Below are positions 8,728 to 39,329 of a stretch of 39,329 bases of DNA, piece by piece. Where the stretch lies: positions 1 to 39,329 of the forward strand of contig JAKAQO010000012.1 in the NCBI GenBank assembly GCA_021822495.1. Direction: 5' to 3'. The notes under the pieces were generated by a model that was given only the letters and a program-made list of their open reading frames with translations, was not told the origin of the DNA and made no database searches. The DNA is from a bacterium (lineage in GTDB: Bacteria; Elusimicrobiota; Elusimicrobia; UBA1565; UBA9628). The position numbers and the translations under genes are program-made. The stretch's first letter is position 1, and the number at the start of each line of letters is the position of its first letter.

Positions 8728-8770
8728 TTTACGTTTTTACGTTTAACTCGCCGTCATGAAGAATGGGCCT

Positions 8771-8836
8771 GCGCCTCTTCTTCATAATTCTTACAGATGG
8801 TGCTGTCCCAACCTTAAGATTATGAGGAATGGGACT
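8771..8836 (+). repeat. Dispersed palindromic element, copy A
   Basis: One of five related 66-71 bp elements. It has the left arm CCTCTTCTTCATAA, the core CTGTCCCAACCTTAAG and the right arm TTATGAGGAATGGGACT. It lies between two - strand genes and runs into the 3' end of the coiled-coil gene, supplying its stop codon. The flank also has a second, degenerate right arm at 8755-8776 (TGAAGAATGGGCCTGCGCC), so the element may be partly duplicated here. Confidence 0.75.
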
Positions 8837-9677
8837 GCGCCTTAAGTTTAGCCTGATACTGATGAACCAGTTCCGCAATTTCAGATTTCATGCCGTCTTT
8901 AATACGTTGGAGTTCATCCTGTTTGATTTTATACTCGCTGAGCAAATCTTGGCTCTGTTTCTTGAGATCCTCTTCTCTCTTGTTGAATATCTCCCGTTGC
9001 TGGAGAGTCTGGGATTCCCAGGTCATGCGCTCTTGCATAAAGCGTTCCTGAAAATCGCGAAGCTCTTTTTCGCGCTGAGCAAACTTTTCTTCAAGGGTTT
9101 TTTCTTTCTTCTGGAGAGATTCGATGTGTTGGCGATGATCGTCTTCAAGAGCTTTCTTTCGGCTTTCCCAGGTCTTTTCAAGTTCGGCTTCTTTGTTTTT
9201 AAGTTCCTGGTAAAAAACTTCCATTTTCCGGGCTTGCAGTTCATCGGACTGGGAAGCGGCTTTGAGATATTCGTCATGAAACTTGACGTTCTCCGCCTCT
9301 TTATCGGCCAAGGCCTTTAGAATATTGTCAATTTCCGCCTCCCGGCTGGCCAGGGTTTTTTCAAGAGCCGCGATACGAACCGAACCGCGGCTAATCTGGG
9401 ATTTTAGCTCCAAAATTTGATCGGAGAAAAATTCGTTAAACTCTTTTGAGAGCATATATTTTTGCTCTGAAAGAGTTTTCTGGGACGCGGCCAAAGCTTG
9501 CCCCAAACGGCGAACCTCACCTTTAAATTCCTCGGTAATGGCCTCAAGGCCTACCGCGGCTGGAGAATCTTCCTGCCAGAGCTTTCGACAAACGTCGTTG
9601 AGCCGAGCCCAAATTTCATCAAGCCTCTGGTGAGGATTCTGAAATCCCTCTGAATTCGTCATATTCTCCATTTCCAT
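8820..9677 (-). CDS. Long coiled-coil protein, unknown function
   Basis: 285 residues, nearly all predicted coiled coil (long Glu/Lys/Gln/Leu heptads from about residue 50 to the end), with no signal peptide or TM, so cytoplasmic. The start ATG 9677 has AAAGGGG upstream; an in-frame start at 9746 exists but would run through the preceding gene. It overlaps that gene by 59 bp in another frame, implying coupled expression. The last codons and the TAA stop (8820-8822) lie inside a dispersed repeat element at 8771-8836, so the tail AQSHSS is encoded by the repeat. A scaffold or filament role is possible but unproven. Confidence 0.72.
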   Translation of the reverse strand: MEMENMTNSEGFQNPHQRLDEIWARLNDVCRKLWQEDSPAAVGLEAITEEFKGEVRRLGQALAASQKTLSEQKYMLSKEFNEFFSDQILELKSQISRGSVRIAALEKTLASREAEIDNILKALADKEAENVKFHDEYLKAASQSDELQARKMEVFYQELKNKEAELEKTWESRKKALEDDHRQHIESLQKKEKTLEEKFAQREKELRDFQERFMQERMTWESQTLQQREIFNKREEDLKKQSQDLLSEYKIKQDELQRIKDGMKSEIAELVHQYQAKLKAQSHSS

Positions 9678-10947
9678 GTTTTTCCCCTTTTTTTCTCTTG
9701 ATGTAGCCGCGAACGGCTTCAAGCAGTTCAGCCCGGAGTTTTTCAACGCCTTCGGATTTTTCCTGCATCATCGACTGCCATTCTTCTATGCGATTATGCC
9801 AATTTTGATCTCTACGGCGCATGAAATCTTCTCGGTCTTTCCAAACGCGGTCTCTGCGGGAAACCTCATCTTCCAGATCTTTAAATTTCTTAAGAAGAGA
9901 TTCTTCAATCATATCTAAATCCGTTTGTCTTTTTGACCAACCTCGTTCGTAAGTCTGAAAGCGTTCTTCGGCGGCCTTTCTTTTAGCCGCTTCTTCCGAC
10001 AAAAGGGCCTGGGACTCTTTGAGCTGATTTTCAATCTCAACTGATTTTTTCTTAAGCTCCGTGACCAAGGACCAGCCCTCTCCGGATTTAAGGCGCCACA
10101 AATTGGCCTCGGCCTTGATCGTCTCTTTTTCTTTTTCAAAAACTCTCTGTTCTTCTTCTATATGCCGAAGCCGGATTTCTGCAGAGCGTGAAATGTTGAG
10201 AGATTCTTCTCTCGCTTTATCCAAAGAAAGCGCGGTCTCATGCAATTTGCGGCGCAAATCTCCTTCCCTCTCCTTAAGCTGCGAGATTTCTTTGAGCAAA
10301 CTTTCTTTTTCAATAGTCCATGAAGAGGAGGCCTGTTCCATTCTCCAAGACGCCACGCGCGCCGATTCCGTTTCCACTTGCCGGCTTTGCATTTCTAAAA
10401 GGTTTCTTTGTTGCGTCATGAATTCATTAAAACGAATCTGGCGTTCCGCTTCCGCCTTTTCCCATTGTTCGGCCTGGTTTTTGACTTGCGCATCCAGAGA
10501 AGATTTAAGGCGTTCGTATTCCGCTTGACTGGCCCGCATCTTAGCTGAATATTCTTTCTCTAAAGCGAGACGCCTTTGGTGGTTTTCTTCCTCAAGGCGG
10601 GCGAGTTCCAGTTCTCGGGAAGCAAGGGAAACTGCCTCGGAGTTCCCAGAAAGCCTATCGGAGACTAAGCTCTGAATTCTTTGTCTAAGTCTCTGATAAT
10701 AGTCATCCCGCCATTTTTCTTCTTCCTCGCGAACAGACAAAGCGCGTTTGAGAGCGCTTCTCTCTTCATCCAGTTTTTCCTTGGCGTCTCCAAATTCTTT
10801 AATTTTCTTTTCAAGAGCATTGTTTTTCTCTTCAAAAACTCTCAGGCGTTCAAGAGCCCAACGCAAGGTCATGCGAGCGGTATCCAGATTGTTAATGGAT
10901 TCGACTCCGCCAACTCCCATCTTCTCCCAATCTTGCGAGTGTCCCAT
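9619..10947 (-). CDS. Long coiled-coil protein, unknown function
   Basis: 442 residues. A short head (about 1-30, 'MGHSQDWEKMGVGGVESINN') is followed by almost continuous charged heptads with regular Trp residues ('EKWRDDYY', 'AEQWEKAEAERQ', 'NLWRLKSGEGW', 'DRVWKDRED', 'QNWHNRIEEW'). There is no signal peptide, TM or catalytic motif. The gene starts at ATG 10947 with almost no Shine-Dalgarno sequence. On the same strand a repeat element ending in GAGGAAAGGGACT-ATG-TAA lies about 50 nt upstream. It heads the unit of two coiled coils and one membrane protein. The architecture resembles bacterial cytoskeletal or scaffold proteins in general shape only. Confidence 0.75.
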   Translation of the reverse strand: MGHSQDWEKMGVGGVESINNLDTARMTLRWALERLRVFEEKNNALEKKIKEFGDAKEKLDEERSALKRALSVREEEEKWRDDYYQRLRQRIQSLVSDRLSGNSEAVSLASRELELARLEEENHQRRLALEKEYSAKMRASQAEYERLKSSLDAQVKNQAEQWEKAEAERQIRFNEFMTQQRNLLEMQSRQVETESARVASWRMEQASSSWTIEKESLLKEISQLKEREGDLRRKLHETALSLDKAREESLNISRSAEIRLRHIEEEQRVFEKEKETIKAEANLWRLKSGEGWSLVTELKKKSVEIENQLKESQALLSEEAAKRKAAEERFQTYERGWSKRQTDLDMIEESLLKKFKDLEDEVSRRDRVWKDREDFMRRRDQNWHNRIEEWQSMMQEKSEGVEKLRAELLEAVRGYIKRKKGEKHGNGEYDEFRGISESSPEA

Positions 10948-11000
10948 AATGTCAGTAGAGTTATAACAGAAGCCCCCGCTTTTTTCAAGACTTCCTTACA

Positions 11001-11066
11001 TAGTCCCTTTCCTCACAATCTTAAGGTCGGGACAATGCCGTCCAAAAGTTATGAGGAGAAGGCATA
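11001..11066 (-). repeat. Dispersed palindromic element, copy D
   Basis: Read on the - strand it runs TATGCCTTCTCCTCATAA, then GGCATTGTCCCGACC, then GTGAGGAAAGGGACTA. It lies upstream of the - strand coiled-coil gene (start 10947). On that strand GAGGAAAGGGACT is followed directly by ATG-TAA (11001-10996), a start-stop pair with a good binding site. It is inverted relative to copy B in the same divergent intergenic region. Confidence 0.8.
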
Positions 11067-11082
11067 GGGGCTTATGCTATCC

Positions 11083-11088
11083 TATACT
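11083..11088 (+). promoter_or_regulatory. Possible -10 box (TATACT) in the divergent intergenic region
   Basis: TATACT lies between the two inverted repeat elements and about 107 bp before the start of the + strand glycosyltransferase. No convincing -35 is seen. If used, the transcript would carry the whole of copy B as its leader. Confidence 0.3.
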
Positions 11089-11129
11089 TAATCGTCGCAG
11101 ATGGATATTTCTAATTTCTTACGAAAATG

Positions 11130-11195
11130 ATGCCTCTTTCTCATAATTATCATGGGCGGCATTGTCCCGACCTTAAGTTTATGAGGGAGGGACTA
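11130..11195 (+). repeat. Dispersed palindromic element, copy B
   Basis: The left arm is ATGCCTCTTTCTCATAA, the core GGCATTGTCCCGACCTTAAG and the right arm TTATGAGGGAGGGACTA. The right arm contains the ribosome binding site (GGGAGGG), and the final A of the element is the first base of the ATG at 11195. In RNA the two arms pair almost completely if G-U pairs are allowed, so the binding site would be sequestered. Confidence 0.82.
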
Positions 11196-11953
11196 TGAAA
11201 ACAATCGCGGTTTTACCCGCTTATAACGCGGAAAAGACCCTGGAAAAGACCGTGGGCGATATCCCGCCAGGCAGCGTAGATGAAATTATTCTGGTTGATG
11301 ACTGCTCTAAAGATGGAACCGTTGCTCTTTCCAGAAAACTAGGCCTCATCACGATTGTCCACGAAAAAAATACGGGCTATGGCGGCAATCAAAAAACTTG
11401 TTATAAAGAAGCTCTCGCTCGCGGGGCTGATGTCGTCATTATGATTCATCCTGATTATCAATATGACGCAAGGCTTGCCCCCATCATGATTTCTCTGATT
11501 AAAAACGGAATCTGCGACGTGGTTTTAGGAAACCGCATCCGAACCCGCTGGGAAGCCTTGGAAGGCGGAATGCCTTTGTATAAATACATATTCAACCGCT
11601 TTCTCACCATCATTGAAAATACCTGTACGGGTCAAAATCTGGGCGAATGGCATTCAGGCTTAAGGGCCTATTCCCGCAAATGCCTTGAAACCATCCGCTG
11701 GCAGGATAATTCAGATGATTTTGTATTCGATCAGGAATTTTTGCTTGAGGCCGCGGCCTGCCACCTTAAAATTGGAGACATTCCCGTGGCCGCGCGGTAT
11801 TTTCCCGAAGCTTCCTCAATTAATTTTAAAAGAAGCGTCGTTTACGGTCTTTCCACGCTTAAAATTCTCGCTCAATACCTTCCCCATCGCTTAGGAATTA
11901 TCCACTTTCAGCGGCTCTCCCCCCAGACCAGACCGGAAACGACCGTGAGATGA
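11195..11953 (+). CDS. Family 2 glycosyltransferase, DPM1-like
   Basis: 252 residues with a GT-A fold: '[15 protein letters not shown]' at the N-terminus, 'VDDCSKDGT' for nucleotide binding and 'IHPDYQYD' in the place of the DxD metal site. There is no TM tail, so it is a soluble or peripheral enzyme of the dolichol-phosphate-mannose synthase-like group. Such enzymes move sugars from a nucleotide donor to polyprenyl phosphate, which GT-C proteins then use. That fits the GT-C gene it overlaps by ATGA at 11950. Its start codon and binding site are part of repeat element copy B, so control through that leader is likely. Confidence 0.87.
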
Positions 11954-13929
11954 TTGAAGATGGTAAATCTCTTTTTTTAGGCGCGGCTTTTCTAACCCTC
12001 TTTTTTGCGCTCTACACCTTCAGTTCTTATTTTTTACCGGCCTTTTTGTCTGGCTTATTGTCTTTTGCTGAACTCTTACTCGTAATGTCGGCCGCGTCTG
12101 GAGTCGGACGCCTGGCGGTGGCCTGGCTTGGTTTTTCGGATATCAGCCCCTCCCAAAAAACCCTGATTGGGGCGACCTTGGGGCTGGGGATATTAAGCCT
12201 CAGCGTCTTTTTTATTGCCGCCGTTCATTATCTCAATTTTCTGACGCTGACTTTATTTCTCTCCCTTCTTTGGATTCTGGGATTTACGGAATTAAAAACG
12301 ATGATATCGTCTCTTAATTCCGCGAAAAAAATGTTTCTCAACCGCCCTTTTGAATCTTTTCTTATTTTTTCCTCCCTTCTCTTGACTCTTTGGTGTTGCT
12401 TCACTCCGCCGCATCAATATGATTCCCTGGTTTATCATTTGCCGCTCGCCGCCGCTTATGTAAAGGCGCATGGACTGGTCAATATCCCCTGGCTACTCTA
12501 CAGTCATTTCCCGCAAAATGGAGAAATGCTGTTTGCCTTGTCTCTTTTATTCAAATCGGACATTTTGGCTCAAATGTTCATGTGGGTTTCCTTTTTCTTG
12601 AGCGTTTGGTGGATTTTTGAAATCGCCCGTCTTGAAATCCCCATGGAAGCGGTCATACTTTCGATTCTTTTGCTGGTCACCCAAACCTCGGTCATGCTTT
12701 TATCGACTTCTTCTTACGTCGAGCCCCTGGTGATGTTGTGGACAACCGCCTCCGTTCTCTCTTTCCTTAGATGGGAGGAAATACGCTCCTCTTCTTCCGA
12801 TTCTAAGTCCTGGCTCATTTTATCGGCCATCTTCTCAGGTCTCGCCTTGGGAACTAAATATTACGCGGGGATTACCTCTGGGATACTGGGAAGCGCGCTC
12901 TGGATTCGAGTCTTTTTTTCTCCTTCCCACAAAAAAGCGCTCAAAGACGCGACCCTTTTTACCGCCATTGTTACGATTCTTTTTTCTCCTTGGATGATTA
13001 AAAACTATTTTTGGGGTGGAAACCCTTTTTTCCCTTTTTTTAACGCGCTCTTTAAGAATTCGGGCAGTGGATGGAACCTTGAAATCGCCCACAACTATTT
13101 TAACGCTCTTGCTGAATATCGAAGCGGGCTTAATTATCATCACTGGGTAGATTTCCCCGTCATGCTTCTAACCAACAGCCTTCATTTTGGGCGCGGGATG
13201 GACGTATTAGGAGGACTGGGTTGGGAAATTTTATTTTGGTCCTTGCCCCTGGCCATTTGGTTTTCCAGAAAAAACCAATTTTTAAAACGCCTCACGGCGT
13301 TTTCCTTGCTCTATCTTTTAATTTGGTTTTTGACCGGCGTGGTTTTGAGATTTCTAATCGTTCTTTGCCCTCTTCTTTGCCTGTTAGCCGGAAATGCGTT
13401 TGAAAAACTCAAGGAACGCCTCAGCCCCCTGACTAAAATGGTTTTAACCTCCGCCATCCTCATCATTATTTTGACCCATTTCCTTCTCTTTCTTTTCGTC
13501 AATTTTGGGGTTTTTGAAGCCGGAAAAGTCTTGCTAGGGGTTGAGAGCAGAACGGAATACTTATCTCAAAAGCTTCTTTATTATCCCTGCGCTCATTACG
13601 CCGCTATGCGGACAAAGCGAAATGATAAGATTCTGATTATGGGAGATCAGCGCAGTTATTACGCTCCGGCTGGGTCAATAGCCTCTTCCATTTTCTCGCC
13701 AAACTCTTTCATCCAAGACTCAAACCTAGCGCAGAACGAAACAGAACTAGCCTCTCAACTCAAACAACAAGGAATCACGGAAATTGCGTGGGTTCCACGC
13801 GAAATGGCAAGATTAGGAGATTCATTGGGAAAGTTATCGCCTCAAGGGAAAGTTCATCTTCAAGAACTTTTTGAGAAGTCTCCCGTTCTTTATCATTCCG
13901 ACGGTTGCATTCTTTTTTCTCTTCAATGA
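11950..13929 (+). CDS. Polytopic GT-C glycosyltransferase (ArnT/PMT-like)
   Basis: 659 residues with about 11-13 hydrophobic helices and a soluble C-terminal part from about 535. The first large loop has the motif '[18 protein letters not shown]', where Asp is the expected catalytic acid of lipid-phosphate-sugar-dependent GT-C enzymes. Further along, '[14 protein letters not shown]' matches bacterial PMT_2-like proteins. It is probably an inner-membrane enzyme using a polyprenyl-phosphate sugar made by the DPM1-like neighbour. The acceptor is unknown. It overlaps both neighbours by four bases (ATGA at 11950 and 13926), so the genes are translationally coupled. Confidence 0.82.
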
Positions 13930-14972
13930 TCAACGTTGAAAATTGGATTCTTTACGCCATCGCTATTATTTTCTCCTTCACTTTGTCTTTTTCCTTGACT
14001 CCGTTGATTCGTAAAATCGCCTTAATTTTCGGTTGGATTGATTCTCCATCCTCTCCCATTAAAACCCATAAAATTGCGACTCCCGTATTAGGAGGAATCG
14101 CGCTTTATCTCGCCTATGCTTTAACCTTGATTTTTCTTCGTCTCTGGACGCGATTTCCGACCGGAACTCTCCATAGTCTCAGAGCCCTTCTCATCGGCGG
14201 AAGTTTGATTTTTGCGGGCGGGATTTTTGACGACATCAATAAGCCCAAGGGCCTTAATTACCGAGTTAAATTCTTCATTGAGTTCGCGGCCGCCGCCATT
14301 GTCCTACTCAATGGCATTCGCATTCGCTTCATTTCTCCCAACTACGTCGCCGCATTTTTGACTCTTCTTTGGATTGTGGGAATTACCAACGCCTTAAATA
14401 TCATCGACATCATGGATGGTCTTTGCGCAAGCCAAGCGGCTATCGCCGCTCTGGGCTTTCTTCTGATTTCCCTTCCTTCGGAAGAACTCTACGTTAATTT
14501 TGCCTCCGCCGCCTTGGCCGGAGCCGCTTTAGGTTTTTTGCCTTGGAATTTTTCAAAGAAAAGAAAAATTTTCATGGGGGATTCGGGCAGCCTCTTGCTC
14601 GGTTTTTTGCTCGCCTGCGTTTCCTTGGGAACCCGTTATTCCGACATCAACCCGGCCGGGGTTTATGCCCCGCTTTTAATTTTACTCGTCCCCATGTATG
14701 ACACGCTTTTTGTCATGATTCTTCGCCTCATGAAAGGAAAATCGCCTTTTATGGGTTCCAAGGACCATTTCGCCCTCCGTCTTGAAAAAATGGGATATTC
14801 TCGCCCGCAAATCGTTCTCATCGCGGCGGCGATCGCGGGGTTTCTTGGGTTCTGCGGTTTTCTCGCGACCCAATTCCATCTTTTGGGAGCGATCATCCTT
14901 TATGGACTGTTGATCATCCCTCTTTTTATCCTGAGCCGAGCACTCGCGCGCGTGGTTATCTACGATGATTAA
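13926..14972 (+). CDS. Undecaprenyl-phosphate sugar-1-phosphate transferase (MraY/WecA/TagO family)
   Basis: 348 residues, about 10-11 TM helices. It shows the ordered family motifs: 'KTHKIATPVLGGI', the DD pair in 'GIFDDINKPKGL', 'NALNIIDIMDGL', 'MGDSGSLLLGF' and a late 'SKDHFALRL' in the usual His-motif position. It transfers a HexNAc-1-phosphate from a UDP sugar to undecaprenyl phosphate, the first membrane step of glycan synthesis. WecA/TagO-like use is more likely than peptidoglycan MraY because the neighbours are surface glycan genes and no mur genes are present. ATG 13926 overlaps the previous stop; an in-frame TTG at 13905 is less likely. Confidence 0.9.
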   Translation: MINVENWILYAIAIIFSFTLSFSLTPLIRKIALIFGWIDSPSSPIKTHKIATPVLGGIALYLAYALTLIFLRLWTRFPTGTLHSLRALLIGGSLIFAGGIFDDINKPKGLNYRVKFFIEFAAAAIVLLNGIRIRFISPNYVAAFLTLLWIVGITNALNIIDIMDGLCASQAAIAALGFLLISLPSEELYVNFASAALAGAALGFLPWNFSKKRKIFMGDSGSLLLGFLLACVSLGTRYSDINPAGVYAPLLILLVPMYDTLFVMILRLMKGKSPFMGSKDHFALRLEKMGYSRPQIVLIAAAIAGFLGFCGFLATQFHLLGAIILYGLLIIPLFILSRALARVVIYDD

Positions 14973-16293
14973 AACCGATGTCTTGATTTTAGGCGGCGGC
15001 CTTGCCGGGCTTTCAACGGCCTATCATCTCAACAAAATTTCCGGACTTTCGGCCTTAATCGTTGAAAAAGAAAAATATCCCGGCGGAACCGCCGCTTCCA
15101 TATCTAAGCAAGGTTTTACCTTTGATTTTACCGGACACCTTCTTCACCTTCACGATCCTTACGGAAAAAAGCTAATTCAGGATTTATTGAAAGGAAATCT
15201 CCGCGAGATTAATCGTAGCGCCTGGATCTATTCGCATGAGACTTTGACGCGATACCCTTTTCAAGCCAACACCTACGGCCTTCCTGACTCTGTGATTAAT
15301 GAATGCCTTTTTGGATTTTTAAAAACCATTCATCGCCCGCCCTCAGCGAAGAAAAAAAAGACTCCAACCTCCTTTAAAGATTGGGCGTTTGAAACTTTTG
15401 GCGAGGGAATCTGCCGGCATTTTTTGTTTCCCTACAACGAGAAACTCTGGCAGAGAAAACTCTCGACCATGACGACTGAATGGCAAGGCCGTTTTGTGCC
15501 CGCGCCCAAGGTTTCCGAAGTCCTTTATGGAGCCGTTATGGACCAAACCAAAGCCTTTGGATACAACGCCTCTTTTCTTTACCCAACAAAAGGCGGTATT
15601 CAATCTTTACCAAACGCCCTCTCCTCGCGTCTCAAAAAGAAGCAACTCCTCTTGGGCCATGAGGCCCTTTGGATCGATTTAAAGACAAAAGAGGCGTTTA
15701 TTAAAAAGATCGGGCTTATTTCTTTTAAGCGCTTGGTGAACACCATTCCCTTAAATGATTTTATTTCTCTAGTAAAGAAAACTCCCGCGCGCGTTCTAAA
15801 CGCCGCCGAGGATTTGTCTTCCAATTCCGTCTATTGCCTTAATCTCGGCGTTTCCGGACGCGTCATGCCGGAAAAGCACTGGATATATTTCCCTGAAAAA
15901 AAATATCCCTTTTACCGCGTCGGTTTTTACCATCAGTTCGCTTCTTCTAACGCGCCCGCGGGCGCAAGTTCTCTCTACGTTGAATTTTCAAGGAACTCAA
16001 AATCCAAAGTTCGCCTGTCCGACATGGAATCTCTCGCTTTAAAGGCTCTCAAGGATTGTAAAATACTAAAGCCTGACAATCAGATACTCATTAAAGAATG
16101 GCTCCCGATTAAATGTGGGTATGTCGTTTATGACTTTAAAAGGACGAAAGTTTTAAACGCCTTGCTTCCTTACCTTGCTCAAAATGGGGTAGAATCAATC
16201 GGACGCTACGGCGCCTGGAAATATTCTTTTATGGAAGAGGCGATTATGGATGGAAAAAAATGTGCGGAGAAGTTAAAAGGAAACTTGTGCTAA
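14965..16293 (+). CDS. FAD-dependent oxidoreductase, amine-oxidase / UDP-galactopyranose-mutase-like
   Basis: 442 residues. The dinucleotide-binding start is 'VLILGGGLAGLSTAYHL', followed by a Glu-ended second strand ('IVEKEKYPGGTAAS') and 'FDFTGHLLHLHDP'. This layout is shared by amine-oxidase-like flavoproteins and galactopyranose mutases found in capsule and O-antigen clusters. The C-terminal 'GRYGAWKYSFMEEAIMDG' fits the last FAD-contacting segment. It probably modifies a sugar or a lipid-linked intermediate (inference). It overlaps the upstream transferase by eight bases and the downstream exonuclease by 34. Confidence 0.8.
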   Translation: MIKTDVLILGGGLAGLSTAYHLNKISGLSALIVEKEKYPGGTAASISKQGFTFDFTGHLLHLHDPYGKKLIQDLLKGNLREINRSAWIYSHETLTRYPFQANTYGLPDSVINECLFGFLKTIHRPPSAKKKKTPTSFKDWAFETFGEGICRHFLFPYNEKLWQRKLSTMTTEWQGRFVPAPKVSEVLYGAVMDQTKAFGYNASFLYPTKGGIQSLPNALSSRLKKKQLLLGHEALWIDLKTKEAFIKKIGLISFKRLVNTIPLNDFISLVKKTPARVLNAAEDLSSNSVYCLNLGVSGRVMPEKHWIYFPEKKYPFYRVGFYHQFASSNAPAGASSLYVEFSRNSKSKVRLSDMESLALKALKDCKILKPDNQILIKEWLPIKCGYVVYDFKRTKVLNALLPYLAQNGVESIGRYGAWKYSFMEEAIMDGKKCAEKLKGNLC

Positions 16294-16874
16294 AAAACCA
16301 GAAAAGGCCCTTAGTTTTTATGGATATCGAAAGCACCGGACTTTCAACCGCCACGGACCGGATTATTGAAATATCCTTGATTAAAATGGAGCCCAACGGC
16401 GTTGAAAAAACCTTCTCTTCTTTTATCAATCCGGAAACCTTTATTCCGGAGCCGTCTTTCCGCATCCATCATATCTCTAATGACATGGTCAAAAATGCCC
16501 CGACTTTTAAAGAAATTGGCCCTCAAATCCGCGATTTCATCGGAATGGCGGATGTTGGAGGCTACGGCATCATTCAATTTGATGTTCCCATTCTTCAAAC
16601 GGAATTTAACCGCGCGGGAATTCCTTTTTTTATGGACGGAAGAAATGTCATTGACGCCCTGATCATCTTCCGGAGAATGGAACGCCGAAATTTATCGGCC
16701 GCCTATCAGTTTTATTGCGGAAAAAATTTGGAGGGCGCTCATCGCGCGGAAGATGACGTTCGCGCGGCCTGGGAAGTCTTCTGGGCGCAAATAAAGCGTT
16801 ACGACAGCCTCTCCAAAGACCTCGGCGAACTTGACCAGTTCTGCCGAGAGTTTAAGAACTCATCTGGAACATAA
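16260..16874 (+). CDS. DnaQ-like 3'-5' exonuclease (DEDDh)
   Basis: 204 residues. It has Exo I 'VFMDIESTGL' (D22, E24), Exo II around 'YGIIQFDVPILQTEF', and Exo III 'HRAEDDVRAAWEV' with the His of the DEDDh class. The length suits a free-standing DNA polymerase III epsilon-like or RNase T-like exonuclease. ATG 16260 lies inside the previous gene. GTG 16287 with AAAAGGA five bases upstream is an equally good start and would give 195 residues. Its stop overlaps the start of queC by one base, so it is in the same transcript as queuosine genes. A direct link is not established. Confidence 0.86.
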   Translation: MCGEVKRKLVLKNQKRPLVFMDIESTGLSTATDRIIEISLIKMEPNGVEKTFSSFINPETFIPEPSFRIHHISNDMVKNAPTFKEIGPQIRDFIGMADVGGYGIIQFDVPILQTEFNRAGIPFFMDGRNVIDALIIFRRMERRNLSAAYQFYCGKNLEGAHRAEDDVRAAWEVFWAQIKRYDSLSKDLGELDQFCREFKNSSGT

Positions 16875-17551
16875 TGAAAAAAAAAGCTGTCGTCTTGCTA
16901 TCCGGCGGCCTTGACTCCTCCACCGCTCTTTATTGGGCAAAGGCAAAAGGCTATCATTGCGAGGGGCTTTCCATTTTTTACGGACAAAGACATGCCCGAG
17001 AACTCCTCTCCGCCCAAGCCCTGGCGAAAAAAGCGAAAGTTAAAATCCATCAAATTAAATTAGATTTACCCTGGCTTAAGATAAGTTCGCTCAATGATAG
17101 AACTAAAAAGTTGCCGAATTTGCCTTTGACTCAAATTGGTCGCGGAGAAATTCCCAGTACTTACGTTCCAGGGCGAAACACGGTTTTTTTATCCCTCGCT
17201 CTTTCTTTAGCCGATGCCACTCAAGCCCAAGCCATCGTCATTGGAGCCAACGCCCTCGATTATAGCGGATACCCCGACTGCCGTCCCAATTATCTCAATG
17301 CTTTTGAGCGAATGGCCAATCTTGGAACTAAAAATGGATCCATGGGACGCCCAATCAAAATTCTATCCCCTCTTCTTCATTTAGATAAAGAGCAAATCGT
17401 GCGTCTAGCTTTTAAGCTCAAGGTTCCATTAGAGCTTACCTGGTCTTGTTACGCGGGAGAAAAAAATCCCTGTGGAAAATGCGATTCTTGTAAACTCAGG
17501 GCCAAGGGATTTTTGCTTGCCAAGGCCAGCGATCCGGCCCTTAAGATTTAA
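16874..17551 (+). CDS. queC: 7-cyano-7-deazaguanine synthase QueC
   Basis: 225 residues. The PP-loop '[13 protein letters not shown]' opens the protein, then 'FYGQRHARE', '[17 protein letters not shown]', '[15 protein letters not shown]' and the zinc site '[19 protein letters not shown]' with four Cys. All are hallmarks of QueC, which converts 7-carboxy-7-deazaguanine to preQ0 using ATP and ammonia. The length is normal. It is followed at once by queE, which makes its substrate; queD and queF are not in the window. Confidence 0.96.
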
Positions 17552-17552
17552 A

Positions 17553-18272
17553 ATGAGCGCGGAGATTAAACTTTCCGATTCCCATTCAGCGCGAATTGTC
17601 GAGATTTTTTCATCCCTTCAAGGCGAGGGAATTTATCTGGGGGAAAGACAAATTTTCGTGCGTCTAGGAGGTTGCAATCTCCATTGCGACTACTGCGATG
17701 AACTAGAGACCATTCCCATTCCCTCGGGAATAATCATGGAGATGGCTCAATTTCAATCGGAAATTTTGAGACTTAACAGTGAAAGAAAACACAAATCTCT
17801 TTCCTGGACAGGCGGAGAACCCCTCCTTCACGTTCCTTTTCTTTTAAGCGCCATGCCCTGGGCGAGAAAAGAAGGTCTTCTTAATTATCTGGAAACCAAT
17901 GGAACCCGGGTTGAGGCCTTTAAAAAAATCAGAGACCTTTGCGATATCGTCGCGATGGATATCAAACTGCCTTCTTCGACTGGCAAAGAATTTTGGTCGG
18001 AGCACTTGGAATTTTTGCGCCTCCTTCCCAAGAAATCCTATGTCAAGGTTATTTTAACGGATAAAACAACGGAAGCGGAATGGCGACAAGTGATTCGCAT
18101 TTTACAAGAAAGTTCTCCCGACATTCCCCTCATTCTTCAGCCCGCGACTCCCATTCGGAATGTCCGAACAATTAAGCCCGCCTTGGCGGTGAAATTTCTA
18201 AAACAAGCTCAAGCCCTTTTAAAAGAGGCGCGGCTCGTCCCGCAATGGCATCCCCTTTGGGGGGTTCGGTAA
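17553..18272 (+). CDS. queE: 7-carboxy-7-deazaguanine synthase QueE (radical SAM)
   Basis: 239 residues. The start ATG 17553 follows the queC stop by one base; an in-frame start at 17472 would lie deep inside queC. The N-terminus reads '[19 protein letters not shown]', followed by the radical SAM cluster '[11 protein letters not shown]' in the CX3CX2C form, '[10 protein letters not shown]' and 'LETNGTR'. The ending 'HPLWGVR' is typical of the family. It converts 6-carboxytetrahydropterin to CDG. The last 54 bp overlap the convergent GT-C gene. Confidence 0.96.
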
Positions 18273-19931
18273 ACGGTAAATTTTGAGGACAGGGCCAGCT
18301 ATTTTTCCTGGGATAGGATCAAATTCTTTGAGCAAAATAGTCTTTGAGTTTAACTGATCAAAAAATTTTCTCAACTCAACGGCCCGTTCGAGATTAACGC
18401 CTTGACTGGAAGTAATCACATACTGAACTCCCGCCCTTTGAGCGGCGCCAATTCCTTGAGATACGTCCAATGTCGGAGAATCTTTTTGCGAAAGCTGAAC
18501 CTCTTTCGTAAAAAAAACATCCAGATCCCAGGAAGAGCGCTTGATGCGGTAAACCCAATACCCGCCTCCAGGATGGGTTTTAGCCATCGCAAAGTAAAGG
18601 CGACTTCGGGGCGAAGCGTTTTTTTGCGCGCGTTCGGCTAAAGCCGCTAATTCTTTTTGAGTCATTAAAAGCCTGGGTTCGGTGTCCGGCTCATCGACTA
18701 AAATAACCGAGCCTTGAGGGATATTTTGGGATATCCAAGTTTCCGCTTCCATTCGGGTGTCTGGAAGCCGCATGAAACTATCCCGTCTGCAAGTCTTGAG
18801 GATAGCCGGAAAAAAGACCAAAGAAGCGATGAGCCCCCCCATAACGAGCTTCCGAATTCTATTTTTTTTCTCAACCAAGAAAAAAATACCAGACGAAGCC
18901 ATAAAATTAAGCGCCGGGAAAACAGAAGTTAAATATCTTGGCACCCCGCCGTCTGGGTTGTTGACCAAAATTAAAAAAGAAATTAAAACGGGAAAAGTCA
19001 AAAACAAAGCCTTCTTAAAATCAAAATAGAAAAGAGAAACAAGTCCGCCAATGGCCAAAAGCCCGGCCCCCCAATCAAATCCTTCAAAGCCCAATAAATT
19101 AATCCCGATATGGCGGGCCACCCCGAGCCTGGTCCAAAACCGAAGAGAATTCATCGCCTCGGGATTGTGCATATGAATCCAAAACCAGAAATTATGAAAA
19201 TCAAGAACCGCGTAAGGAGAGCCCAAGACAAAAGCTAGGGAAAAAATAGCGAGAGCTTCCAACGCCCAAATTCTAGGCGTATTTTTAGGAGAAATGAAAT
19301 CCAAAGCTATAAGAGCGCTTAAAGCCGGAAGGGCCGTGTATTGGCTGGAAAAGGCGAGCCCCCAAAAAAAGGCGGAAAGAAAATGTTCTTTTCGACTGCC
19401 TGACTTAAAAAACTTGACGGCATAATGCCATCCAAGGCAAACCAAGAAAAACATGAGGCTGTCGGCTTTCGCCTCATGAGCGGAATAAATAAGAAGCGGA
19501 GAAAAAGCGGCAAAAACCCAGGCCCAGGAAAACTCCGCCATTTCTTTTCCCGTTTGATAAAGAACAAAAATAGCCGCCATTGAAAAAACTCCGGCCGCCA
19601 AGCGAGCGATGAGATAAAACTCCGTCGGATGCCAGCCATACATCCCCGCAAAAGCCGAAATGCCGTGCCAAAGCCCAAAACCAGACCACAAAAGAAAGTA
19701 AAACCCAAAACACATAAATAAAAAATAGGGCCACAAAGTCGGATATTTAAAAGCGAAAGGCCTTAAAGAGCCGCGCCCAAAGGAAACCGCAAGATTCAAA
19801 AAATGTGGCTCGTCTCCATTAAAGGTATTGGGAAGCCCCCATTTAACGCCCAAAATTCGTAACCCTGTCGCTAGAACTAAAGCGGCGGCAAAAAAAACTT
19901 TTTTCAGATCAACTGGGCGATTCTCGTTCAT
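18219..19931 (-). CDS. Polytopic GT-C glycosyltransferase (PMT/ArnT-like)
   Basis: 570 residues. TM1 is near the N-terminus, then a first loop with '[13 protein letters not shown]' where Asp-Glu is the expected GT-C catalytic motif. About 10-11 TM helices run to residue 370. A soluble extracytoplasmic domain follows (about 375-560) with '[17 protein letters not shown]'. It probably moves a sugar from a polyprenyl phosphate to a lipid or protein acceptor outside the inner membrane. It starts 105 bp from the divergent gene at 20037. The last 17 codons overlap queE on the other strand. Confidence 0.8.
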
Positions 19932-19954
19932 AAATTCAAGCAGTATTATTCTAT

Positions 19955-19960
19955 TATAAT
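19955..19960 (+). promoter_or_regulatory. -10 promoter box TATAAT upstream of repeat copy C
   Basis: A perfect TATAAT stands four bases before the left edge of the repeat element. No clear -35 hexamer is seen. Initiation about seven bases downstream would make the element the exact 5' leader of the mRNA for the gene at 20037. Confidence 0.5.
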
Positions 19961-19963
19961 GCT

Positions 19964-20034
19964 ATGCCTCTTCTTCATAATTCTTGCGGACGACGCTGTC
20001 CTGACATTAAGATTATTTATGAGGAAAGGGACTA
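19964..20034 (+). repeat. Dispersed palindromic element, copy C
   Basis: The left arm is ATGCCTCTTCTTCATAA, the core ACGCTGTCCTGACATTAAG and the right arm TTATGAGGAAAGGGACTA. The right arm holds the ribosome binding site AAAGGG, six bases before ATG 20037. The arms pair over about 14 positions when G-U pairs are allowed. Confidence 0.82.
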
Positions 20035-20036
20035 AT

Positions 20037-21296
20037 ATGCCAGATGCGATGAGAAGCCTCATTAAACGCCTCAATCAATCCTCTCCATTCTTTTGGTTTT
20101 TCCTGGCCTTTATCCTCCGCCTTATTTTCGCCTTAAAACTGGGAAATGGTTTATATCAAATAGATGAATCAGGATACCACGCCTCCGCTCTCAATCTGGT
20201 AAAATTTAACGTCTTTGGAAGCCAAACTCACGCTTCGGCGGGAGCGCCCATTCCCGCATTTTATTTCTCCATTTTTCTTCGCTTTTTTGGAGACCATCCC
20301 TTGGCGGCAAGATTAGGTCTACTCATTCCCGACCTAATGCTTGTCTGGATTATGTGGAAAATGGCGGAAAAACTTTGTCAATCCCAACTCGCGGGTAAAA
20401 TCGCGCTCATGATTTCTTCTGTTTATCCTTTTTTCATTTACTACGGGGGCATGATGCTTTCTGAAACTCCGTATCTTGTTTTCATGACTTTTGGAATTTG
20501 GCAATTATGCCAGAGTTTGGCCGAAGACGGAAAAAACCGCGCGCGCGCGATGGGTTCGGGAATCTCATTAGCCTTGGCCGGCCTCTCAAGGCCTGAAGGC
20601 GCGGTGATTATGCTTGGAATATGGTTCATTGTGTTTATTGTTTCGCGCAAGAGCTTGCGCCTTTTAAAAGGGCTTCTGATTTCTTTTTTTTGTTGGTTGT
20701 GTATTTTAGGATCATGGTCTGTTAGAAACCGCATTGAAACGGGTTCTTTTGCCTTGGACAGCCATGGCGGAGTGAATTTGCTTTACGGAACGCTTCTCTT
20801 TGACGTCAATGAACAAGACACCTTCGTGGCCAATCGTATCATCGAACAAATGCCCGCCTTCGCAAATATCAAAAACTTACCCCTCAACAAACAAGATCAA
20901 ATTTATTGGAAAGCGGCGTTTCAATTCATGCGAGAGCATCCAACTCAAGTCATCCGGCAATGGGGACGCAAAACCGTCAATTTCTGGAGATTTTATCCCC
21001 GGGGCGAAAAATTTTACACGGAAAGCTCTCAAAGCCGCCCGGATATCGGGCTCAAAAGAAGCGGCCTTATCTTGATTAGCCTTTTAACGGAACCCTTTCT
21101 TATTATTTTTGGCCTTTGGGGCCTGGTCAAACTTTTGAAAACGAACCAGACTATTTATCCAGTCGTCCTTTTTGTTTTGGCGACATTTTTCCTTCACATG
21201 ATCAGCGTCAGCCAAATGCGCTACCGCTTGCCGGTGATGCCGTTCCTGATTTTAGGGACTAGCTATTTTATGGCCAGTCTCATCCCCAACATATAG
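20037..21296 (+). CDS. Polytopic GT-C glycosyltransferase (PMT_2-like)
   Basis: 419 residues. After TM1, the first loop has 'GLYQIDESGYHASALNLV', the Asp-Glu motif of GT-C enzymes. About 9-10 TM helices follow, with 'GLSRPEGAVIM' and 'RNRIETGSFALDSHGG' typical of this family in bacteria, and the end 'SQMRYRLPVMPFLILG'. The start ATG 20037 uses the AAAGGG inside repeat copy C; an in-frame ATG at 19959 would translate through the repeat and overlap the TATAAT box, so it is rejected. The last 34 bp overlap the convergent GT2 gene. Confidence 0.82.
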   Translation: MPDAMRSLIKRLNQSSPFFWFFLAFILRLIFALKLGNGLYQIDESGYHASALNLVKFNVFGSQTHASAGAPIPAFYFSIFLRFFGDHPLAARLGLLIPDLMLVWIMWKMAEKLCQSQLAGKIALMISSVYPFFIYYGGMMLSETPYLVFMTFGIWQLCQSLAEDGKNRARAMGSGISLALAGLSRPEGAVIMLGIWFIVFIVSRKSLRLLKGLLISFFCWLCILGSWSVRNRIETGSFALDSHGGVNLLYGTLLFDVNEQDTFVANRIIEQMPAFANIKNLPLNKQDQIYWKAAFQFMREHPTQVIRQWGRKTVNFWRFYPRGEKFYTESSQSRPDIGLKRSGLILISLLTEPFLIIFGLWGLVKLLKTNQTIYPVVLFVLATFFLHMISVSQMRYRLPVMPFLILGTSYFMASLIPNI

Positions 21297-21940
21297 AGGA
21301 TGTTTTCCAGCCCCACCCGCCAAGGCATGAGTTTGGTCTCTCCCAAGCGGCTTCGATAGGGAATCGGAATTTCTTTAAACTTATCTTTGAGAGATTGATA
21401 GGCCTGCAATTTAATCTCCTCGGAAAAATTCCAGTTATCGCTTTCCAAAAAAAATTCTTTAAGAACACTTCGTTTGAAAACCCACATCCCGGACAAAATA
21501 TCGCTAAAAGAGTGAAGCCATAAAACCGAAGCCGCTGCCGTGATCACACGATTTCCAAACTGATTGAGCCTATCCATGCTTTGAGAATCCAACAGAGGAA
21601 AGCGCGAGCAAGAAATAAAATCCAGATTGGAACTCAGAAGTTCTTGGATAAGAGACTCAAGATTCTCGACAGGATAAGTTCCATCCGCATCGGCGGTCGC
21701 GATAATATCTCCTTGGGCCTGTTCAAACCCAGTTTTGTAGGCCCGGCCATAACCGCGCCTTTTTTCAACGATTACTTTCCAGCCGAAACTCTCGGCGATT
21801 TCCCGGGTTCGGTCGTGACTGTCGCCATCAATAATTAAAACTTCATCAACGGAAGATGAAATCTTGTCCCGCAAATAATTAAGACCATCCGCCTCATTCA
21901 TGGTCGGCAAAATCAGGCTCACTTTTTGACCCAGGATCAT
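21263..21940 (-). CDS. Family 2 glycosyltransferase, DPM1-like
   Basis: 225 residues: 'SLILPTMNEADGL', 'VLIIDGDSHDRT' and the metal-binding 'TADADGTYP' (DxD). There is no TM tail, so it is the short soluble type that makes polyprenyl-phosphate sugars. It would supply the GT-C enzymes encoded on both sides. It overlaps the upstream epimerase by four bases (21937-21940) and is the last gene of the heptose/epimerase operon. The 3' end overlaps the convergent GT-C gene by 34 bp. Confidence 0.87.
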   Translation of the reverse strand: MILGQKVSLILPTMNEADGLNYLRDKISSSVDEVLIIDGDSHDRTREIAESFGWKVIVEKRRGYGRAYKTGFEQAQGDIIATADADGTYPVENLESLIQELLSSNLDFISCSRFPLLDSQSMDRLNQFGNRVITAAASVLWLHSFSDILSGMWVFKRSVLKEFFLESDNWNFSEEIKLQAYQSLKDKFKEIPIPYRSRLGETKLMPWRVGLENILYMLGMRLAIK

Positions 21941-22911
21941 GACTCAACCTTAGACGACCACCGCGCATAATCACGGATGGATTTGAAAACTGCCGAGGTA
22001 GAATCAAGGGCAGGCTCCCAGCCATAGCGTTTGATTTTTGAGACATCTAAACTTGTTTTAGGCACATCTCCCACCCAACCAATGGGAGAATCCTGGTAGT
22101 TGACCTTGCAATTTTTAAGATTTAAGGCCCGGCACGTCTCTTCAGCGATTTGTCTTACCGAGGTGGTTCCTTCCGTGCTTAAGTTAAAAATTTTAAATTT
22201 TTCGGCGTGCGAGGCCCCGGGCGGGCTTTTCTCAAAGGCCAGACCAATACCGGAAACGCAATCTTCTACGTCAATATAGGTTTTGGTTTGAAACCCGTTT
22301 CCTAAAACATTCAGCTCTTTTGGATTTTTTCTCAAGCGTCCGATAAAATCGTAAATGACCCCATGAGTTAATTTCTCTCCCACCACGTTCCCAAATCTAA
22401 AAATCCACGCTTCTAAGCCATAATTTTCGACAAAGGCGCTGATAAAAGCCTCGGAAGCCAGTTTTCCGGCGCCGTAAATGGAAACGGGATGAAGATTGGG
22501 AGAAGACTCTGAAGTGGGCATTGGAGGGTTTGCCCCATAAACGGCGGAAGTTGAACTAAAAATAAATTTAGGAATCTTCATCTCCCGGGCCGCTTGAAGC
22601 GCCTCAAAACTCGTGTCGAAAGTACGGTTCTTATCCATCTCCGGACGCGCATTTCCCAAAGAGATGTCGGAATTAGCCGCTAAATGTACCAATAAATCGA
22701 ACTTGCGGCCTTGAATTTTTTTGTGCCAGCCAGAAACGCTTGCGTCTAACTCTTCAAACTCAAAATCGGAATGATTATGAAACTCTTCCAAATGGCGAGG
22801 CGTCCCCAAAGCAAAATTATCCACGCAAAAAACCTGCGCGCCTTTTTTCAGGAAAAGCCTCGTCAAGGCATTTCCCACCAGTCCCGCCCCTCCGGTTAAT
22901 AAAACGCGCAT
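21937..22911 (-). CDS. NAD-dependent sugar-nucleotide epimerase/dehydratase (extended SDR, GalE-like)
   Basis: 324 residues: 'VLLTGGAGLVGNALTRL' Rossmann motif, 'FSSTSAVYGA' with the catalytic Ser/Thr, 'YGAGK' as YxxxK, and 'FRFGNVVGE' after the active site. The length and motifs are those of UDP-glucose 4-epimerase-like extended SDRs. The exact sugar cannot be told. It lies between the GDP-heptose genes and a DPM1-like transferase, so modification of a nucleotide sugar used nearby is likely. It follows gmhA by 11 bp. Confidence 0.86.
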   Translation of the reverse strand: MRVLLTGGAGLVGNALTRLFLKKGAQVFCVDNFALGTPRHLEEFHNHSDFEFEELDASVSGWHKKIQGRKFDLLVHLAANSDISLGNARPEMDKNRTFDTSFEALQAAREMKIPKFIFSSTSAVYGANPPMPTSESSPNLHPVSIYGAGKLASEAFISAFVENYGLEAWIFRFGNVVGEKLTHGVIYDFIGRLRKNPKELNVLGNGFQTKTYIDVEDCVSGIGLAFEKSPPGASHAEKFKIFNLSTEGTTSVRQIAEETCRALNLKNCKVNYQDSPIGWVGDVPKTSLDVSKIKRYGWEPALDSTSAVFKSIRDYARWSSKVES

Positions 22912-22922
22912 AATCTTTGGTC

Positions 22923-23540
22923 TTATCTCTGTTTCAAATAAAAAGTGAGGATATGGCCAATGGCCATGTGCATATCCTCAATGACGCCGTACTGGCTGGA
23001 AGGAACGAGAATGGATAAATCAACCATTTTCTTTAACTCCCCGCCGTCAAAACCGAGAATGCCGACGGTCTGGGCTTTCTTCTTTTTTGCCAAGCGACAA
23101 GCCTTGATGAGATTTTGTGAATTTCCGCTTCCCGAAATTAAAATCACCAAATCTCCAGGATTTAAAATATTCTCCAGTTGCCGGCTAAAAATCTCATCAA
23201 AAGAAAGATCGTTTCCAATCGCCGTCAGATAAGGGATGTTCTCCGACAAGGACCGGCAGCGAATCTGAGGTCTTCCCGCTATATAAGCGGTTTTGGATAA
23301 ATCCGTCGCCCAATGAGACGCGGTCGCCGCAGACCCCCCGTTTCCCATGACAAAAATCTCGCGGCCTTCTTTTTCCGCCCGCTCGATTTTTTTCGCAAGC
23401 GCGTCAATGGCGCCAATGTCCAAATTCTCCCAATGCTGAAGAGATTCCGCCCGATACCAAGCGGCGAAATCTTGAGCGGACAATTTCCCGGGACCGACGA
23501 GATGGAAAGCCCCCGGACGGGTTGAATTTATTTTTTTCAT
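22923..23540 (-). CDS. gmhA: Sedoheptulose-7-phosphate isomerase (SIS domain)
   Basis: 205 residues. SIS-domain motifs 'VMGNGGSAATASHWATDL' and 'ISGSGNSQNLIKA' are present, plus 'EDMHMAIGHIL' near the end, which is typical of GmhA. It converts sedoheptulose 7-phosphate to D-glycero-D-manno-heptose 7-phosphate. The start ATG 23540 is chosen because a longer frame to 23618 would translate across repeat element E. The binding site GAGAGGG lies in that element, 12 bases upstream. The kinase, guanylyltransferase and phosphatase for the next steps are directly upstream on the same strand. Confidence 0.92.
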   Translation of the reverse strand: MKKINSTRPGAFHLVGPGKLSAQDFAAWYRAESLQHWENLDIGAIDALAKKIERAEKEGREIFVMGNGGSAATASHWATDLSKTAYIAGRPQIRCRSLSENIPYLTAIGNDLSFDEIFSRQLENILNPGDLVILISGSGNSQNLIKACRLAKKKKAQTVGILGFDGGELKKMVDLSILVPSSQYGVIEDMHMAIGHILTFYLKQR

Positions 23541-23548
23541 CGTTTTTT

Positions 23549-23620
23549 TAGTCCCTCTCTTCAGAACACAACCTAATGGTCGGGACAATGCCGACCTTAC
23601 GGTTATGAGGAAAGGCATTA
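23549..23620 (-). repeat. Dispersed palindromic element, copy E
   Basis: Read on the - strand: TAATGCCTTTCCTCATAA, CCGTAAGGTCGGCATTGTCC, CGACCATTAGG, then a longer degenerate right arm ending GAGAGGGACTA. It fills exactly the gap between the hddA-like stop codon (TAA at 23620-23618, part of the element edge) and the gmhA start. The inner stem GGTCGG/CCGACC is perfect in this copy. Confidence 0.8.
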
Positions 23621-24589
23621 GCGACTGACATGGATTATTTTCGATCCCTCGGGCTCGAATTTAAACGGAATCTGGCGCCAAGCTTTAAGGCTATGAATTA
23701 CGGAAGAACGCTTGGACGGCGGGCAAAAAAGAAGCAAAAACCCGCCGCCCCCAGCTCCCAGAATTTTCCCGCCTACCGCGCCCGCTTTGAGAGCTCTGCG
23801 GTAAACCTGATCGATTTCGTGGTTGGTCACCTCTCCGGTCAGGGATTTTTTGATCTCCCAACTCTCCCGCAGAACTGGTCCGATGGCGTCCACATCTCCT
23901 TTTTGGATTCTGTCTTTAGACCAATAAGCGAGTTCTCTTAGACGTCTCAGACTCTCCATATTCTGAGAGAAATTATTGCGGGCTTTCTTGAGGATGGAAC
24001 CGGCCTTGCGACGCATTCCAGTATAAAACAAAATCATTCGGCTAAAAAGAGCTTCCCGCGTTTTCTCGCTTAGAATTACGGGATTTACTTTCACGCTCTC
24101 ATCCGGCAAAAATTCGATAAATTGAAAACCGCCGTAAGCCGCGATGTATTGATCTTGCTTCCCGATAGGATCTTTGAGCCGCTCAATTTCAATTTCACAC
24201 GCGCCTCGGGCCAATTCTTCCGCCGTGCGAAATTCGCCCTTAAAGGCTGACAAAGCGTGCAAGGTTCCGACAGTAAAGCTGGACGAAGAACCCAAGCCGG
24301 TTCCGCCTGGGATATCGGCCATGGAAGTCATCTCGATTCCGCGATGAAGACCGCTTTGAATCAAGCATTCCCGCCACAGAGGATGGCGAATTTGAGCGGC
24401 CGAATCAACCAGTTCGCTTTTTGAGTATTTGAGAAACACCGCCTCGTCAAAATAGCGGTTAACCGTGATATACATATACTTGTCAATCGCGAAAGACAAG
24501 ACTGCGCCGTGTTCGTGGCGATAAAATTCTCTTAAGTCCGTGCCGCCGCCGGCGAGACTAATTCTAAAAGGCGTGCGGGAAATAATCAT
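23618..24589 (-). CDS. hddA: D-glycero-alpha-D-manno-heptose 7-phosphate 1-kinase-like GHMP kinase
   Basis: 323 residues of the GHMP fold: an N-terminal 'SRTPFRISLAGGGTDL', the phosphate-binding loop 'IPGGTGLGSSSSFTVG' and C-terminal 'GKILGAGGGGFLLLF'. These match HddA-like sugar kinases, which phosphorylate the 1-position of heptose 7-phosphate in the GDP-heptose route. The neighbours gmhA, gmhB and an hddC-like gene make that assignment better than a fucose or galactose kinase. The start overlaps the upstream gene by ATGA, and the stop forms the edge of repeat copy E. Confidence 0.88.
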   Translation of the reverse strand: MIISRTPFRISLAGGGTDLREFYRHEHGAVLSFAIDKYMYITVNRYFDEAVFLKYSKSELVDSAAQIRHPLWRECLIQSGLHRGIEMTSMADIPGGTGLGSSSSFTVGTLHALSAFKGEFRTAEELARGACEIEIERLKDPIGKQDQYIAAYGGFQFIEFLPDESVKVNPVILSEKTREALFSRMILFYTGMRRKAGSILKKARNNFSQNMESLRRLRELAYWSKDRIQKGDVDAIGPVLRESWEIKKSLTGEVTNHEIDQVYRRALKAGAVGGKILGAGGGGFLLLFCPPSKRSSVIHSLKAWRQIPFKFEPEGSKIIHVSR

Positions 24590-36411: not shown

Positions 36412-36500
36412 ATGAAAACAAAGAAAATATTCGTGACGGGGTCATCGGGGCTGATTGGTTCCGAGGTTTGCATTTATTTTGGAAAGCGGGGTTTTAAAGT
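36412..36500 (+). repeat. 89-bp perfect direct repeat, left copy
   Basis: It is identical to 39203-39291. It begins exactly at the ATG of the epimerase fragment; the upstream flanks of the two copies are unrelated. Together the copies bracket a segment of about 2.8 kb. Confidence 0.92.
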
Positions 36501-36597
36501 TGAGGGCTTAGACAACAACCAACGCATAGCCGTCATTCCCTTGCCTTTATCCGCACGAGTTTGCCGCGAAAAATTCAAATTGGACGCAAATATCTAA
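36412..36597 (+). pseudogene. 5' fragment of an NAD-dependent tyvelose/paratose-epimerase-like gene
   Basis: The first 38 codons (MKTKKIFVTGSSGLIGSEVC...) encode the Rossmann start of an extended SDR and end at 'DNNQR'. The same 38 residues begin the gene at 39203. After codon 38 (about 36525) similarity stops, and a short unrelated tail runs to TAA at 36595-36597, giving 61 residues where about 350 are expected. The catalytic half is missing, so it is a deletion remnant or a recombination scar. The first 89 nt are identical to the copy at 39203; the next 27 nt differ only at synonymous positions. A GT2 gene follows at once. Confidence 0.85.
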
Positions 36598-39202: not shown

Positions 39203-39291
39203 ATGAAAACAAAGAAAATATTCGTGACGGGGTCATCGGGGCTGATTGGTTCCGAGGTTTGCATTTATTTTGGAAAGCGGGGTTTTAAAGT
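39203..39291 (+). repeat. 89-bp perfect direct repeat, right copy
   Basis: It is identical to 36412-36500 and begins at the ATG. From 39292 on the two copies differ at nearly every third codon position while encoding the same residues, until the left copy breaks off about 25 bases later. Confidence 0.92.
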
Positions 39292-39329
39292 CGAAGGGCT
39301 TGACAATAATCAGCGCGCGGTGTTTTTCG
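39203..39329 (+). CDS. NAD-dependent tyvelose/paratose-epimerase-like SDR, 5' part (runs off window)
   Basis: ATG 39203 follows AAAAAGGGA with good spacing. The 42 visible codons give a Rossmann motif 'VTGSSGLIGSEVCIYFGKRG' and continue 'DNNQRAVFF', the usual reading of CDP-tyvelose/paratose 2-epimerase-like proteins. It is thus the intact member of the pair, the other being the fragment at 36412. It is three bases after the stop of the GT-C-like gene. Confidence 0.8.
   Translation, partial: MKTKKIFVTGSSGLIGSEVCIYFGKRGFKVEGLDNNQRAVFF

Follow-up and report, generated by a model that had tools for sequence, protein, structure and literature searches.

RUP, the repeat unit of pneumococcus, whose presumed mover is IS630-Spn1, and ERIC, an enterobacterial repeat, are short, palindromic, non-autonomous elements that are dispersed, often duplicate TA and fold as RNA (PMC2229807, PMC3049150). 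The Yersinia palindromic sequence YPAL, or RU-2, is 168 bp long, duplicates 3-26 bp, has termini without a strict TA and targets sites at or near dyad symmetry (PMC2229807). RPE, the Rickettsia palindromic elements, are short palindromic mobile elements that can lie in frame within genes (PMC10969869). Here we describe a palindromic repeat of about 66 nt that is present in five copies, A to E, in the window, the complete 39,329-base contig C13 of the 2.2-Mb draft genome G000.

This repeat works like RUP, ERIC and YPAL. With RUP and ERIC it shares the short palindromic form, the dispersal, the lack of autonomy and the target duplication. In contrast to both, it is shorter, its ends pair with its own centre, its duplications are TA, TG or TNA, and a parent insertion sequence was not found. 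Like YPAL, it duplicates its target, inserts at or near dyad symmetry and has termini without a strict TA motif, but the duplication comprises 2-3 bp at a C-TA, C-TG or C-TNA target. The likeness to RPE is one of features alone: element plus 2-bp duplication often amount to 66 nt or 22 codons, and one copy (L055:1501-1578) sits in frame close to the beginning of an open reading frame (ORF), adding no stop, while most copies are intergenic. The distinctive traits are the small size, the end-to-centre stems, a target that includes REP-like palindromes, and a right arm that resembles a ribosome-binding site at start codons. We conclude, with a probability of about 0.8, that the repeats represent a very short non-autonomous element of the type of miniature inverted-repeat transposable elements (MITEs), with an end-to-centre fold and a right arm similar to a ribosome-binding site.

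Empty sibling sites and duplicated targets

The first-pass annotation described five related intergenic elements. All five are found at the positions and strands that it gave, with the shared parts, the complementary arms and the complementarity between ends and loop. The element proper extends from TGCC to GGGAC, has 62-68 nt in the window and is followed on either side by a target duplication of 2-3 bp:

Copy A, 8772..8835, plus strand: CGCC...GGGAC, TG-type subfamily, with TG flanks at 8770-8771 and 8836-8837.
Copy D, 11003..11064, minus strand: TGCC...GGGAC, with TA flanks at 11001-11002 and 11065-11066.
Copy B, 11131..11193, plus strand: directly upstream of the start codon of a glycosyltransferase-like ORF, flanks GA and TA.
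Putative Shine-Dalgarno-like GAGGGAGGG in the right arm of copy B, 11183..11191, plus strand: read from the sequence.
Glycosyltransferase-like ORF (by sequence), 11195..11953, plus strand: its ATG begins at the last base of the right flank of copy B.
Copy C, 19965..20032, plus strand: TGCC...GGGAC with a few extra right-arm bases, flanks TA and TA; an ORF also reads through it.
Copy E, 23551..23617, minus strand: TGCC...GGGAC with TNA-type flanks TAA and TAA.

The orthologous sites were compared in four siblings, G001, G002, G003 (MAG JAJZCM, an incomplete metagenome-assembled genome) and G004. Copy D has a clean empty site in all four. The site of copy B is clean and empty in G001, G002 and G004, and G003 carries a different insert there. 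Copy E, which is inserted at the TAA stop codon of the upstream ORF 23618-24589, has a clean empty site in G002, G003 and G004. For copy A, only the right-hand side (...CTGCGCCTTGAG) aligns without the element, the left side having diverged. Copy C is absent from G002, but its flanks have diverged. Outside the window, uninterrupted sibling sites are found for eight further copies (L127, L107, L115, L054, L132, L050, L011 and L112) and for two copies on contig C63 of G003 (L120:1538 and L120:5069), so that about ten sites add to those of B, D and E. The element entered these empty-site loci after the sibling species had split.

The letters directly outside TGCC...GGGAC are TA/TA in 29 copies (read as CTA/CTA), TG/TG in 17, or TNA/TNA. 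Rare flanks are also alike on the left and on the right, namely CCA/CCA, CGA/CGA, CCG/CCG, CTCA/CTCA (twice), CTTA/CTTA and CTGA/CTGA. For four of these, the empty site of the siblings holds the same letters: CCA at L054, CTCA at L107 and L127, and CTTA at L115, where each of the four siblings has CTTATG as its target. The duplication is a copy of the target. At L132 and L050 the sibling targets are TTAATG and TTTAAG and the right flank is CTA, which suggests that the right-end C belongs to the element.

The marks of a bacterial MITE are present: terminal inverted repeats, which are imperfect (TGCCTCTTCCTCATAA versus the complement of TTATGAGGAAAGGGAC), target-site duplications with several decayed or mismatched cases, and recent mobility. 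Because the sibling sites are empty and the flanking duplications match the sibling target, we read the repeat as a MITE-like mobile element and not as an ancestral leader RNA. The earlier suggestion of a mobile repeat of REP or MITE type thus holds for the MITE-like part, on empty sites, target duplications and patchy presence. The duplications argue against a REP moved by a RAYT transposase.

Pairing of the element ends with the centre

RTGCC at the left tip forms a stem with GGCAY in the centre, and GGGAC at the right tip with the adjacent GTCCC. In 80 copies, the left stem shows 25 double-changed cells versus a shuffle mean of 6.7 and maximum of 13, and the right stem 7 versus a mean of 0.9 and a maximum of 4; as the copies are related, these counts are not probabilities. 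The double changes include TACC/GGTA, TCTC/GAGA, TTCC/GGAA and ATCCC/GGGAT. When tips and cores are swapped between copies, independent of any alignment, none of 100 swaps is as good as the own pair, and within TA-type copies 6/300 and 0/300 are. Within subfamilies, the left-stem signal holds in the TG group and is weak in the TA group, where the right-stem signal is also found. Compensatory changes keep the tip-to-centre pairing.

The arms of the long hairpin behave differently. They show no excess of double changes in the same 80 copies (8 cells versus 10.1 expected), and in the swap test 84 of 100 foreign arms are as stable, own arms being better in only 16. We therefore rejected the long hairpin as the conserved structure. 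Predicted minimum-energy folds are divided into 41 long-hairpin and 38 two-hairpin forms, so on paper two folds are possible. The first-pass annotation had proposed a bistable switch between them. Its end-to-centre stems do covary, whereas no co-evolution of arms is seen in the long hairpin, the form that would mask the Shine-Dalgarno sequence. Only the end-to-centre stems bear a mark of selection, and mobility accounts for this at least as well as regulation does.

Distribution, targets and gene starts

Genome-wide counts rest on searches and on sequence stretches. With copy B as the BLAST query, 43 matches turn up in its own genome, from E=1e-28 down. Fifty-seven genomes were scanned with a covariance model based on 31 copies. 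In G000, with 150 of 709 first-look candidates scored, the model finds about 54 distinct non-mirrored places, most with E<1e-7. Given these two counts, the family lies far beyond chance, and the five copies first listed are a small part of a dispersed family with about 50 members in G000. G003 yields about 35 copies with the model; its siblings G001, G002 and G004 yield none, and neither do 29 additional members of the same family and 12 of the same order. A search for the exact 20-nt core matched only JAJZCM (isolate JA2.bin36) in the GTDB contig collection and nothing among viral contigs, and no Rfam family matches in the window. Weak model matches in G046 and G055, from another family of the class, are tandem hairpins of different sequence and probably another repeat. 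That family holds tandem arrays of hairpins of 33-38 nt (L071 = G055:C132, L064, L068 and L070) of the form GTCCC...GGGACTGTCCC...GGGAC, spaced by CTG or similar.

Tandem copies of the element itself also occur. Two lie between ribosomal-protein genes of G003, read as rpsJ and rplC from sequence, and one contig of G003 starts inside an array of identical 66-bp units, in which neighbouring units have one TA in common. At L069 and L074, the tandem copies share a single TA.

The centre of the element goes along with its target. Where the centre is GGCAT, insertion is mostly at C-TA or C-TNA; where it is GGCGC or GGCAC, insertion is at C-TG. Some dozen C-TG copies split a palindrome such as AAAAAGGGGACTGTCCCCTTTTT precisely in its middle; this palindrome also occurs uninterrupted in many copies. 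The exact sequence GGGGACTGTCCCC is found 82 times in G000 versus 0 for the reversed control, often as pairs spaced 27-38 bp. It is found 138 times in G042, of the same order, and few times or not at all in most relatives; G038 was also noted. Our literature search found nothing on this palindrome.

Gene arrangements around 86 sequences were called by a crude ORF method: 46 lie between co-directional genes, 18 between divergent and 6 between convergent ones, 15 overlap ORFs, and 1 is undecided. Every arrangement is thus represented, and the element occurs in either orientation. At about 13 loci, with loci common to G000 and G003 merged and short ORFs left out, the right end lies at most 14 nt from an ORF-opening ATG. 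This agrees with the earlier idea that the repeat is reused as a leader, the sequence suggesting that initiation itself may take place there. In 13 sequences an upstream ORF has its stop codon at the left tip as well; about 10 of them appear to be genuine stop-element-start junctions. Two of these read TAATG in siblings, i.e. an overlapping stop and start.

In the window, the annotated Shine-Dalgarno sequence before a start codon is clear for copy B (GAGGGAGGGACT-ATG), and in siblings other sequence precedes this ATG. The start codons behind C and E are ambiguous as ORFs read through. Here the purine-rich arm stands upstream of an ATG that is 4 nt (C) or 10 nt (E) from the right end. AGGAG in the right arm is found in 9 of 24 copies with an ATG at 0-4 nt and in 0 of 60 others (Fisher p=4e-6). 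This enrichment could stem from selection for ribosome binding or from common descent within a subfamily; in their left halves, the AGGAG copies resemble one another barely more than random sets do (p=0.06). In start-codon copies the Shine-Dalgarno sequence is predicted to be mostly paired, with a mean unpaired probability of 0.03-0.72. We infer that the right arm may function as a portable ribosome-binding site. Given this end, the element seems able to land at gene starts without shutting the genes off.

Two further repeats adjoin this material. A separate dispersed repeat, GGTCTTTTGCCGGAA..TCTAGGACTTTAGACCCA, borders several copies (L075:1591, L080:1596, L120:13168) and is also present in sibling genomes. 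The window also contains a 114-nt direct repeat, 93% identical, at 36412-36525 and 39203-39316, which is an epimerase-like gene start (MKTKKIFVTGSSGLIGSEV...); its first occurrence is apparently a gene fragment.

Proposed mode of movement and rival explanations

The element inserts after a C and duplicates 2 bp, usually TA or TG, or 3 bp (TNA) in a third subfamily. In the proposed mechanism, the single-stranded element would fold into two small hairpins side by side, with its ends brought close to each other, and a transposase acting in trans would recognise this form. The right arm is rich in purines (GAGGAAAGGG, AGGAGAGGG in some copies) and could work as a ribosome-binding site, and insertion at a start codon or at an overlapping stop-start TAATG would therefore be tolerated. 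Start-codon copies may so have become leaders of the downstream gene. A more specific version is doubtful as a whole: that the moving form has both ends paired with a common centre (CTR-hairpin-YTG-hairpin-CTR), that the centre helps to choose the target (TA or TG, or the centre of a REP-like palindrome), and that its own ribosome-binding site lets the element enter stop-start junctions in operons and take charge of initiation for the gene that follows.

Several points weigh against a MITE-like element with a ribosome-binding arm. Copies with non-matching flanks exist (L050, L011 and copy B, where GA/TA faces CA in siblings), which we explain by later mutation, for copy B presumably decay. Duplications of 2 bp and 3 bp within one family are unusual. 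Kinship of the copies inflates the covariation counts, the change from A/G to T/C is partly one subfamily split, and elsewhere in the subfamilies stem variation is too low to tell. The AGGAG copies have other right-arm letters in common, and several of their loci are common to both species. Searches by DNA, model and end pattern found no autonomous element with these ends in these incomplete assemblies. The DDE transposase family PF01609 has no match in G000 or G003, other transposase families not having been searched. An orphan right end at G003:C64:4257, considered as the autonomous parent, is merely a truncated arm at a gene start.

G000 has two Y1 transposases. RAYT1 (L031, G000:C11:83509-86841, positions 1192-1866, minus strand) is flanked by AAAAGGGGACTGTCCCCTTTT palindromes, which also encode the C-terminal end of its ORF, where KKGTVPFF stands twice. 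G002 has an orthologue beside the same genes (L090), again with similar palindromes. The second transposase (L032, G000:C5:14525-17821) lies between the halves of a long inverted repeat of another kind (GGGACACATCACTTAATT...).

Our early working idea was that such a RAYT (TnpAREP, an HUH enzyme of Y1 type) moves the element as it moves REP and REPIN: single-stranded hairpins would be cut after CT, with a central YTG guiding CTR at both ends. Known TnpAREP indeed cuts at CT beside a hairpin with a guide-like choice through GTAG, and CT-flanked hairpins, palindromes near a Y1 transposase and a plausible recognition of structure are common to both systems (PMC8266576). The AAAAGGGGACTGTCCCC palindromes that flank RAYT1 equal the target of the CTG subfamily, and both the tip-to-centre pairing and the correlation of A/G with T/C fit a guide. 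We dropped this idea because insertion of the IS200/IS605 HUH type leaves no duplication, whereas here rare flanks match on both sides and repeat the letters of the target. The distribution of RAYT lowers it further. G003 has about 35 copies but no match to PF01797, although this genome is incomplete, and G002 has a RAYT but no copies. Presence of the element is not tied to that of a Y1 gene, and the alignments show no conserved GTAG beside the hairpins. RAYT co-occurrence, duplication-free insertion and the GTAG tag, which mark REP and REPIN, are all missing, and we consider a RAYT as mover unlikely.

An explanation that we regard as quite possible, while leaning against it, is a mobile intergenic repeat without leader function, in which the right arm does not initiate and start-codon positions are merely tolerated or follow from target preference. 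Copies are indeed found in all gene arrangements, 3' ends included, and the C-TNA target alone would fit TAATG junctions. Against this stand the restriction of AGGAG to copies at ATG and the exact stop-start placement, which shifts the native upstream sequence of the gene by 66 nt. A regulatory leader RNA, in which the long hairpin hides the Shine-Dalgarno sequence and the two-hairpin form alters access to it as a translational switch, appears very improbable to us. Both folds are predicted and the Shine-Dalgarno sequence is mostly paired at start codons, but the long hairpin shows no co-evolution between its arms, and most copies lie away from start codons. Placement before orthologous genes is not conserved: the sibling genes lack the element, and few loci are common to G000 and G003. 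A common function of the neighbouring genes was not seen either. Copies stand beside all kinds of genes, including the two ribosomal-protein genes of the sibling; the suggested switch and the suggested link to envelope genes are both unsupported.

For a MITE-like element that covaries in its end-to-centre stems and duplicates its target within 66 nt, the question of the moving enzyme arises, because structure-recognising enzymes of the IS200/IS605 type leave no target duplications. Given that close genomes with and without the element offer exact empty sites, a comparison of before and after insertion is directly possible. Where genes are tightly packed in operons, insertions usually do harm. 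An element with its own ribosome-binding site would, if this holds true, have a simple route for spreading there and could change translation gene by gene.

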